Assembly (NCBI GenBank): GCA_014379965.1
Contig: JACMKU010000161.1
Location: forward strand, 1 to 64,000
DNA length: 64,000 nucleotides
Direction of reading: 5' to 3'
DNA from: Chitinophagaceae bacterium
GTDB taxonomy: Bacteria > Bacteroidota > Bacteroidia > Chitinophagales > Chitinophagaceae
Shown: positions 3,125-44,355 of the stretch, in pieces
Numbering within the stretch: position 1 is the stretch's first letter
Layout of the letters: each line of letters opens with the position of its first letter
The notes under the pieces: generated by a model
Told to the model about the DNA's origin: nothing
Databases searched by the model: none
What the model saw: only the letters and a program-made list of their open reading frames with translations
Program-made: the position numbers and the translations under genes

Positions 3125-3152
3125 TGGAAGGTAACTGATCTGCCCTCGAGCT

Positions 3153-3190
3153 TGATGCTCGGATGCGTGGAGACACGCATCCGAGCATCA
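3153..3190. repeat. Perfect 17-bp hairpin (GGATGCGTG family)
   Basis: Arms TGATGCTCGGATGCGTG and its exact reverse complement are separated by GAGA. Related degenerate GGATGCGTG/CACGCATCC motifs recur at about 1055, 3297 and 3379. There is no following T-run, so it is either a REP-like palindrome or a transcript-end stabiliser for DUF4199. The gap from 3125 to 3520 contains these palindromes and no gene. Confidence 0.85.
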
Positions 3191-3420
3191 GAATTTTGGA
3201 CACATTGAAGGTTGACTACACTAGAAGATTTTAACGCGCAAAGTTTGAAACTTTGTCACAGGTTTTATAGCGCTGGACGAAACCATTTGCCGCCCGGATG
3301 CTTGTCCTCACGCATCCGTATCTCTATCATAACCAAACAACGATGATTGTAAAACTTGATCGCTCATTCCTTAAACAGCGGATGCGTGGCGACACGCATC
3401 GGGCCGTCAAGATTTGAGAA

Positions 3421-3452
3421 AAAGACCCCGGGTCAAGCCCGGGGAGACACCC
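3421..3452. repeat. CCCCGGG inverted repeat (copy 2, reverse orientation)
   Basis: ACCCCGGG-TCAAG-CCCGGGG with flanking AAAG and GACACCC. It is the reverse-oriented counterpart of the palindrome at 1145-1177. Confidence 0.8.
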
Positions 3453-3520
3453 GAGTGATTGAAGCGTTATTTGAACCTCGAACTCAACTCCTAATTCCGG
3501 ATTCCTGATTCCGGATTCCC

Positions 3521-3554
3521 AAAAAAAAAGACCCTGAATTTAATCAGAGTCCTT
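3521..3554 (-). terminator. Rho-independent terminator after the tRNA-like fragment
   Basis: Read on the minus strand, GACTCTGA pairs with TCAGGGTC (one G-T pair) around a TTAAAT loop and is followed by nine T residues. It lies directly 3' of the chimeric tRNA half. Confidence 0.75.
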
Positions 3555-3555
3555 G

Positions 3556-3612
3556 TGATCCCGCTGGGACTCGAACCCAGGGCCCTCCCGACTAAAGTCG
3601 GGATGCTCTACC
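3556..3612 (-). pseudogene. Chimeric tRNA-Lys 3' half (partial tRNA)
   Basis: On the minus strand this stretch reads from the D-arm GGTAGAGCA through the T-arm and acceptor strand of tRNA-Lys. It is identical to the intact gene at 3984-4056 over GGGCCCTGGGTTCGAGTCCC and beyond. There is no 5' half, and the anticodon arm is replaced by the palindrome CCCGACTTTAGTCGGG, which cannot form a 5-bp stem with a 7-nt loop. It therefore should not work as a tRNA. The 3' end of the GIY-YIG gene runs into it (3592-3612), so the last codons and stop of that gene come from tRNA-derived sequence. A terminator follows. Confidence 0.85.
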
Positions 3613-3852
3613 CTTCGCAATCAAATCTTCAATGTAACGACGCGACTTCATCCTTTTTATTTGCATTTCTCTTCGCCTTGCATCGAGTAAAACTTCAAAC
3701 TCTTCTAGGTACACTACCTGCCACGGCACACCCAAACTTGTGAATTTTGAATGTCCAGAATTATGTTCATATAACCTTCGTTCGAGGTTTGTGCATGAAC
3801 CAATATAATACTTGTCTAACCTTACTGAATAAAGTATGTAAGCAAAGGGCAT
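3592..3852 (-). CDS. Small GIY-YIG nuclease domain protein
   Basis: An 86-residue protein made almost entirely of one GIY-YIG (UvrC N-terminal-like) nuclease domain. The GIY and YIG strands correspond to AYILYSV (4-10) and KYYIGSC (14-20). The catalytic arginine is in ERRLYEH (24-30), and the metal-binding glutamate is likely E62 in RRREMQIK. Stand-alone GIY-YIG proteins of this size are abundant in Bacteroidota, usually with no known substrate. Its C-terminus (GRASRL) and stop are encoded by tRNA-Lys-derived sequence. The gene sits between two extra tRNA-Lys 3' halves downstream of the intact tRNA-Lys, like the cargo of a small mobile unit. No own promoter is evident. It may be read through from the tRNA. 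Confidence 0.85.
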   Translation of the reverse strand: MPFAYILYSVRLDKYYIGSCTNLERRLYEHNSGHSKFTSLGVPWQVVYLEEFEVLLDARRREMQIKRMKSRRYIEDLIAKGRASRL

Positions 3853-3889
3853 AAAAAAAAGGTTTCTTCTTGATGAAATAGTAACCTTT
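3853..3889 (-). terminator. Terminator-like hairpin 5' of the GIY-YIG gene
   Basis: The minus strand shows AAAGGTTACTATTTC followed by GAAGAAACCTTTTTTTT, an imperfect stem with a T-run that ends just before the GIY-YIG start codon. It resembles the terminator of the intact tRNA-Lys at 3947-3982 and appears to be its duplicated, partly decayed copy. Confidence 0.55.
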
Positions 3890-3941
3890 TGATCTCAATG
3901 GGACCTAAACCGGCCATCTTAACTATTGTCGGGATGTCTGG
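3890..3941 (-). pseudogene. Decayed second tRNA-Lys 3' half
   Basis: The minus strand contains CATCCCGAC, then a degraded T-arm (GGCCGGTTTAGGTCCCA) and GAGATCA, immediately followed by a terminator-like hairpin. The order and spacing match the chimeric fragment at 3556-3612 and the intact tRNA 3' end, but with many substitutions and small gaps. I read it as an older duplicated copy of the same tRNA 3' half. Confidence 0.5.
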
Positions 3942-3946
3942 TGAAA

Positions 3947-3982
3947 ACAAAAAAGGTTACCGCTCCTTGAAACAGTAACCTT
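3947..3982 (-). terminator. tRNA-Lys terminator
   Basis: The minus strand reads AAGGTTACTGTTTC, a short loop, then GAGCGGTAACC followed by a run of T. It begins directly after the tRNA-Lys acceptor stem. Confidence 0.75.
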
Positions 3983-3983
3983 G

Positions 3984-4056
3984 TGATCCCGCTGGGACTC
4001 GAACCCAGGGCCCCAACATTAAAAGTGTTGTGCTCTACCAACTGAGCTACGAGATC
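3984..4056 (-). tRNA. tRNA-Lys (anticodon TTT)
   Basis: A complete 73-nt cloverleaf without encoded CCA. The acceptor stem GATCTCG pairs with CGGGATC (one G-T pair) and the discriminator base is A. The D-arm contains GCTCAGTTGGTAGAGC. The anticodon stem CAACA/TGTTG carries loop CTTTTAA with anticodon TTT, and the T-arm contains GGTTCGAGTCC. A Bacteroidota promoter lies upstream at 4098-4129 and a terminator directly downstream. Two further 3' halves of the same tRNA follow downstream on the same strand. Confidence 0.96.
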
Positions 4057-4097
4057 TTCCACCAATCACAACCTGGAAGCGGTCGTGTTTGGGAGTG

Positions 4098-4129
4098 CAA
4101 AAATACGCCCCCACACCATCCATACCAAA
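4098..4129 (-). promoter_or_regulatory. Promoter of tRNA-Lys
   Basis: The minus strand shows TTTG (4129-4126), 20 nt, then TATTTTTG (4105-4098). This matches the Bacteroidota primary sigma factor consensus, with the -7 element 41 nt upstream of the tRNA. Confidence 0.75.
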
Positions 4130-4239
4130 AATTTCTACCGGTTCATCAAATATCGTCCTTACTGGTTTGCAACACTATATCCCGCATTTTGGAATTGTTG
4201 CTGTTTTTTAAAGTAGGTTTGCCATAAAGATTCTTTTTA

Positions 4240-44268: not shown

Positions 44269-44343
44269 GGGAGTTTAGCTCAGCTGGTTCAGAGCATCTG
44301 CCTTACAAGCAGAGGGTCGGCGGTTCGATCCCGTCAACTCCCA
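44269..44343 (+). tRNA. tRNA-Val (anticodon TAC)
   Basis: A complete 75-nt cloverleaf without encoded CCA. The acceptor GGGAGTT pairs with AACTCCC, discriminator A. The D-arm contains GCTCAGCTGGTTCAGAGC. The anticodon stem TCTGC/GCAGA carries loop CTTACAA, anticodon TAC. The T-arm contains CGGTTCGATCC. It has its own promoter (44184-44214) and terminator (44356-44384). The accessory region starts directly downstream, so this tRNA is a candidate integration site. Confidence 0.96.
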
Positions 44344-44355
44344 CGTAGATCAGTA

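Follow-up and report, generated by a model that had tools for sequence, protein, structure and literature searches.

Integrative elements that target tRNA genes by means of tyrosine recombinases have an intact tRNA at one end and a 3′ fragment at the other, the element itself restoring the gene. The unit described here, found beside a tRNA-Lys gene of a Chitinophagaceae bacterium in the 64,000-nucleotide stretch of DNA that was analysed (hereafter the window), resembles them in that its tRNA is regenerated while a fragment lies at its far end. It differs from them in having no integrase, a single gene of 261 bp and a displaced copy altered by a hairpin, and in the existence of 5′ versions. A second comparison is with RAYTs, which are Y1 transposases, and with the REPs, present in hundreds of copies. 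Here also short palindromes are tied to a small nuclease gene, but the protein belongs to the GIY-YIG family and not to the Y1 one, and the palindromes are few and bound to tRNA copies.

The nearest precedents are SegB and the related free-standing GIY-YIG homing endonucleases of T-even phages. SegB, encoded in the tRNA cluster of T4 and T6, is implicated in breaks in tRNA regions and drives its own inheritance as well as tandem and segmental amplification; microhomology links the 5′ end of a tRNA and the 3′ end of segB (PMC2988022, PMC13096335). In both cases a single intron-free GIY-YIG gene sits beside tRNA genes. The differences are that SegB is a phage gene lying between whole tRNAs, whereas the present units belong to bacterial chromosomes and are inserted within a tRNA gene; that they bring a replacement tRNA half and a hairpin; that they sort by isotype; and that their protein is nearer to UPF0213 and SLX1. 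Single-domain proteins of this latter kind (PDB 1zg2, 1ywl, 7cq2) are indeed the closest by sequence, yet the portions consulted of a phylogenomic survey of GIY-YIG proteins mention no association with tRNA genes for the standalone bacterial ones (PMC1564403).

No earlier description of tRNA-rebuilding GIY-YIG units was found in the open-access literature, subscription papers and preprints being outside this scope. They give the impression of a minimal selfish element of a class not yet described. As a working filing, we would place them beside the free-standing homing endonuclease genes and not count them as members of that class, because their nearest sequences are not homing enzymes and the cut-and-copy process that defines homing is here only predicted.

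The locus at tRNA-Lys

On the minus strand, from 4056 to 3519, the window displays the following features.

3983 to 4056, minus strand: intact tRNA-Lys(TTT), the host gene (ARAGORN)
3953 to 3982, minus strand: terminator immediately 3′ of tRNA-Lys
3890 to 3934, minus strand: decayed displaced tRNA 3′ part with a decayed palindrome, TCCCGAC-AATA-GTTAAGA (repeat family D3, matching the tRNA 3′ end with its terminator at 75%)
3853 to 3888, minus strand: terminator-like hairpin with a T-run reaching the start codon of the GIY-YIG reading frame (from the sequence; repeat D3)
3592 to 3852, minus strand: GIY-YIG nuclease gene, 86 aa, 261 bp (PF01541, E 5.6e-13)
3604 to 3612, minus strand: D-arm remnant of tRNA-Lys, GGTAGAGCA, within the end of the reading frame (the same in L010 and L015)
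3586 to 3603, minus strand: palindrome TCCCGACTTTAGTCGGGA, which replaces the anticodon arm and closes the unit on the right
3555 to 3585, minus strand: displaced tRNA-Lys 3′ end, matching the resident tRNA-Lys at 31 of 31 nt
3527 to 3554, minus strand: terminator 3′ of the displaced end, probably the original terminator of tRNA-Lys

Every part listed in the first-pass annotation (tRNA-Lys, three terminators or hairpins, two tRNA 3′ parts and the GIY-YIG gene) was thus recovered. The restored tRNA-Lys is intact and uninterrupted, and it is the displaced copy that has been changed by the hairpin. The GIY-YIG reading frame is the sole gene of the unit. Its final codons (G R A S R L stop) run through the D-arm remnant and the hairpin, the stop codon being inside the hairpin, which agrees with the earlier view that the end of the gene derives from a tRNA. 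That annotation had also spoken of a chimeric 3′ half. The last 31 nucleotides do match exactly, but more than a half is present: a piece of the D arm has been kept, and the palindrome stands in place of the anticodon arm, a substitution which is the hallmark of the wider family. ARAGORN calls the chimera (3627-3555) a defective tRNA, and its score against the Rfam tRNA model, 25.4 bits, is below the 29-bit cut-off. The 24-nt 3′ end of tRNA-Lys occurs twice in the window and in none of 100 shuffles. The decayed part at 3890-3934 is what is left of an earlier unit, from which the nuclease gene is missing.

Several familiar explanations were tried and rejected. A group I intron finds no counterpart, as the Rfam scan of 3400-4200 returned no intron family and the tRNA is uninterrupted. 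The unit, with its GIY-YIG gene only, has no integrase or recombinase that would make it the remnant of an integrase-type island, and neither PADLOC nor PHROG gave a match suggesting a defence or a phage gene. Just downstream of the unit, a palindrome (CGGATGCGTG..CACGCATCCG) is repeated three times within about 260 bp (window 3152-3411).

Association with tRNA genes and spread

Relatives were sampled in seven genomes of the same genus, in one genome per genus of the family, in GTDB contigs of other genera and phyla (a scan that used one protein as query), and in further loci. In the same genus, most of them begin about 25-60 nt 3′ of an intact tRNA of the same strand, be it Lys, Ala, Arg, Pro, Leu, Met, Glu, Phe or others, and most then show a partial copy of that very tRNA and a second terminator.

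The association was measured on 176 distinct matches with enough flanking sequence. Relatives scoring at least 80 bits lie at most 150 nt downstream of a same-strand tRNA in 71 cases out of 103, against 4 out of 38 below 60 bits, in a test that scores the second units of tandem arrays as unlinked. With so few linked, these distant GIY-YIG proteins make an internal negative control. Taken together, the tRNA-linked matches use some 20 anticodons. Sequence derived from a tRNA is found within 230 nt of 98 of the 103 higher-scoring relatives on one side or more, and on both sides for 83 of them, while it occurs in 0 of 119 control windows; of the 39 below 60 bits, 21 lack it altogether and only 4 are flanked by it on both sides. 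Both flanks are of one amino-acid type in 80 of the 96 two-sided cases, all scores included. Compared with the tRNA of its own locus, the downstream copy exceeds the 99% level set by mismatched tRNAs in 64 of 88 cases. Shuffles and mismatched-tRNA controls rule out a chance origin of these repeats and associations. The median unit is 350 bp long. A search for GIY-YIG genes that end in a tRNA half, proposed at the outset, showed this to be common: the displaced copy overlaps the end of the reading frame in 33 of 62 cases.

In a phylum-wide sample, the family is present in 58 of 148 genomes and 41 of 83 genera. An intact tRNA of the same strand was seen at 27 of the 28 loci examined, and it adjoins the unit or its array in nearly all. 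Beyond Bacteroidota, tRNA-linked members include records of Calditrichota, Neomarinimicrobiota, Sumerlaeota and CPR. Phages, plasmids and viral contigs gave no relative for the queries tried.

Boundaries and mobility of the unit

The limits of the unit are given by a congener (G002) that has the Lys-type unit at tRNA-Lys (L015) and again at an unrelated site (L009), with different flanks. The two loci have exactly 315 bp in common, 93% identical, starting at AGTCCCAGCGGGATCAC (from the T loop to the 3′ end of the tRNA) and ending within the palindrome. The shared stretch defines the unit as a tRNA 3′ end, a terminator, the gene, a scrap of D arm and the palindrome. In the window, its left end is the last 17 nt of tRNA-Lys (3999-3983). 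No target duplication is evident at L009, the sole ectopic copy found. Tandem arrays have a period of about 328-418 bp and reach eight units. The repeated insertion of a discrete unit, suggested earlier from the window alone, is borne out by these tandem copies and by the sharp ends of the ectopic one.

Comparison of relatives disclosed empty and filled sites, which the first-pass annotation had proposed to look for, both at the orthologous tRNA-Lys and at a pair of tRNA-Val genes in another genus. At tRNA-Lys, identified by the same neighbouring short-chain dehydrogenase gene, the nuclease gene is present in three congeners and absent in four. Of the latter, one shows only the terminator, its contig stopping shortly beyond, a second holds another insert, and two have non-coding tandem units of about 165 bp: two copies in G005 (L052) and several in G001 (L056). 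They open with AGTCCCAGCGGGATCAC, or with a near variant, and close with a TCCCG...CGGGA palindrome; this makes them look like non-autonomous kin of the unit. We also noted that each of them carries about the last 17 nt of tRNA-Lys and contains the 3′ end of this tRNA in inverted copies, and that G001 has, upstream of tRNA-Lys, a 5′ pseudo-copy with a palindrome in its D loop. The other insert (L054, in G003), placed 3′ of the same tRNA-Lys and apparently coded on the opposite strand, is of a different kind; the site thus seems to attract other elements too.

Cleaner evidence comes from a Val-Val-Tyr cluster of tRNA genes in a genus that belongs to a different family. It is empty in four species and filled in two (one unit in G265, two in G088), with flanks about 83-91% identical, and G214 has only pseudo-tRNA units there. 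At one and the same tRNA-Val, one of two Polaribacter genomes has one tandem unit more than the other. Mobility of the unit is well supported. A separate observation concerns three loci of one genus at a tRNA-Val cluster (L292, L293, L297): they hold repeats of about 190 bp, with no nuclease gene, each made of a tRNA-promoter-like stretch and a pseudo-tRNA-Val with the hairpin TTCCGATTTTTAATCGGAA.

Mirror units

A number of loci show the opposite order, with a displaced 5′ part and its hairpin ahead of the gene and the intact tRNA after it. This is the layout of Pro L156, of Arg L159 and L162, and of Ser L107 in a Berkelbacteria record; the intact tRNA is likewise downstream of the gene in L249, L250, L252, L254 and L260. 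The first-pass annotation had seen a very small mobile unit targeting tRNA 3′ ends. A discrete inserting unit it is, but its target is the entire tRNA gene, because in mirror units it is the 5′ half that is displaced. The principle common to both orientations is insertion within a tRNA gene, restoring whichever half the unit carries.

The hairpin of the displaced copies

Of 68 displaced copies, 54 contain a perfect GC-rich hairpin foreign to the tRNA; control stretches contain one in 3 of 50, and several displaced copies without a perfect hairpin hold imperfect ones. Its position, read by eye, tracks the nuclease clade and the isotype: it occupies the anticodon arm in Lys, Val, Arg(TCT) and Leu(TAA), the D arm in Pro and Phe, the anticodon loop in Met and Leu(CAA), the T loop in Glu and the D loop in Arg(CCG). 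Its sequence varies by clade (TCCCGA, TCCGCC, TTCCGA, CCTGCCTG) with the pairing kept. A REP-like palindrome repeated genome-wide was considered and discarded, the copy numbers in this genome being only 12 and 10. Elsewhere in the same genome lies another pseudo-tRNA, Pro-like, with palindromes in its arms (L045, G000:C161:371-388).

The nuclease

The 86-aa protein matches PF01541 above the cut-off, and the catalytic positions (Y5, Y16, G18, R26, H30 and E62) are invariant in 15 sequences. Among close copies dN/dS is 0.07-0.25; that the gene is under purifying selection is a well-supported conclusion. The nearest solved structures by sequence are UPF0213 proteins, followed by SLX1 and, weakly, I-TevI. 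The similarity to the UPF0213/SLX1-like proteins spans the whole domain (profile positions 2-73), and the model for group I intron endonucleases yields a sub-threshold match only. The protein is a single domain and, unlike I-TevI, has no separate DNA-binding domain. The enzyme is predicted to cleave DNA.

When tRNA labels are placed on the tree of 84 tRNA-linked proteins, they require 36 changes against 65 for shuffled labels, with 0 of 200 shuffles as low, on a tree of 81 columns in which many forks are open and near-copies add to the clustering. For most isotypes the grouping extends across genera, and the Pro member from Calditrichota sits with the other Pro members. There is good support for specificity of the nuclease clades for their tRNA isotype.

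A cupin gene in a similar setting

Another part of the window (44092-43259, minus strand) has the layout of the GIY-YIG unit with another gene inside: a tRNA-Val 3′ fragment and a terminator, a cupin gene, and a pseudo-tRNA-Val with the hairpin TCCCGACAGTCGGGA. An intact tRNA-Val(TAC) is found nearby, at 44269-44344 on the plus strand. The cupin gene is absent from the six congeners searched. It may be cargo, or it may merely lie between two relics. Among the loci of the family that could be judged, a search for other cargo met only known GIY-YIG arrays or non-coding units.

How the units might move

We think it fairly probable that the unit of the window belongs to a family of minimal selfish elements, widespread and some 330-470 bp long, single-gene and of homing type, that insert within tRNA genes and rebuild them. 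These discrete units have inserted repeatedly, sort by isotype and are under selection at tRNA genes. Upon insertion, the half carried by the unit would rebuild an intact tRNA on one side; the original other half would be displaced to the far side, the hairpin taking the place of one of its loops or arms, and in mirror units it is the 5′ half that would be rebuilt. Most likely, the nuclease would cut the tRNA gene, either as such or folded into a cruciform. Recombinational repair from an element-bearing copy, through the short flanking tRNA homologies, would then amount to homing with regeneration of the target. Repair via the tRNA halves would leave exactly such a locus: a whole tRNA, then the unit, and, displaced, the half and the terminator that belonged to the recipient. 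The tRNA direct repeats so created could subsequently permit tandem growth and loss, with relics such as the decayed half of the window. The gene starts where the T-run of the terminator ends, suggesting that it would be expressed by read-through from the tRNA promoter. The hairpin, too, would presumably have a role in the process.

Two points do not sit easily with homing: the intact tRNA at a filled site still contains the presumed target, and the protein, whose sequence resembles UPF0213 and SLX1 more than homing enzymes, lacks a separate DNA-binding domain. We therefore keep as a serious variant a structure-specific cut, either of a cruciform in the manner of SLX1, or of the terminal hairpin in the manner of RAYTs. 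Carried further, this leads to the idea that the substrate is the palindrome and not the tRNA gene, with a nuclease akin to REP-associated or hairpin-recognising transposases cutting the terminal hairpin and moving the unit as single- or double-stranded DNA, while tRNA homology only guides its landing. The palindromes are near-universal, sit at the unit end, keep their pairing despite the change of sequence between clades and also terminate the non-coding tandem units of G001 and G005, and SLX1, a near relative, is a structure-specific nuclease. This account is nevertheless unlikely, the palindromes being few per genome, unlike REPs, and the sorting of clades by isotype pointing to the tRNA as the target rather than to the palindrome.

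Selfishness might be dispensed with altogether. Unequal recombination between tRNA repeats would passively copy the tRNA and whatever follows it, and the nuclease gene would be a bystander kept, for example, for DNA repair. Direct repeats and tandem arrays are what unequal crossing-over is expected to produce, and purifying selection fits a bystander with another function. We nonetheless judge passive duplication very unlikely, for it leaves unexplained why one gene family should be found at about 20 kinds of tRNA, as well as the mirror units, the hairpin, the ectopic copy and the presence or absence of units between related species. Finally, the function might be exerted on RNA, the nuclease or the displaced copy acting on tRNA (as a toxin and its decoy, or in the processing of mRNA 3′ ends by tRNA enzymes), mobility being secondary. 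Displaced copies do retain tRNA-like arms with hairpin substitutes, reading frames often enter them, and a GIY-YIG domain fused to a tRNA methyltransferase appears in the consulted portions of the survey (PMC1564403). Against this, displaced copies decay freely, as in the window at 3934-3890, the half that is lost, 5′ or 3′, differs by locus, and our searches found no RNA-cutting GIY-YIG toxin; we regard a function at the RNA level as highly improbable.

To return to selfish units that insert within tRNA genes and rebuild them, it is possible, and we propose it tentatively, that they make a distinct class of transposable elements. Such single-gene GIY-YIG units would use a short tRNA homology and a terminal hairpin to insert within a tRNA gene, entering it from either side and rebuilding the tRNA as they do so. 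They would have non-coding derivatives and possibly passenger genes, as in the cupin unit, and would be present in Bacteroidota and other phyla without a phage or plasmid vehicle.

Biological meaning

If this explanation is true, the units would be among the smallest autonomous mobile elements of bacterial chromosomes, and they would account for a great many pseudo-tRNAs and GIY-YIG genes of the single-domain kind. They would show that a parasite can inhabit an essential gene by returning what it breaks. The origin of tRNA gene copy number and of tRNA pseudogenes in Bacteroidota would become testable, and the family would be a source of small nucleases that may be specific for individual tRNA isotypes.
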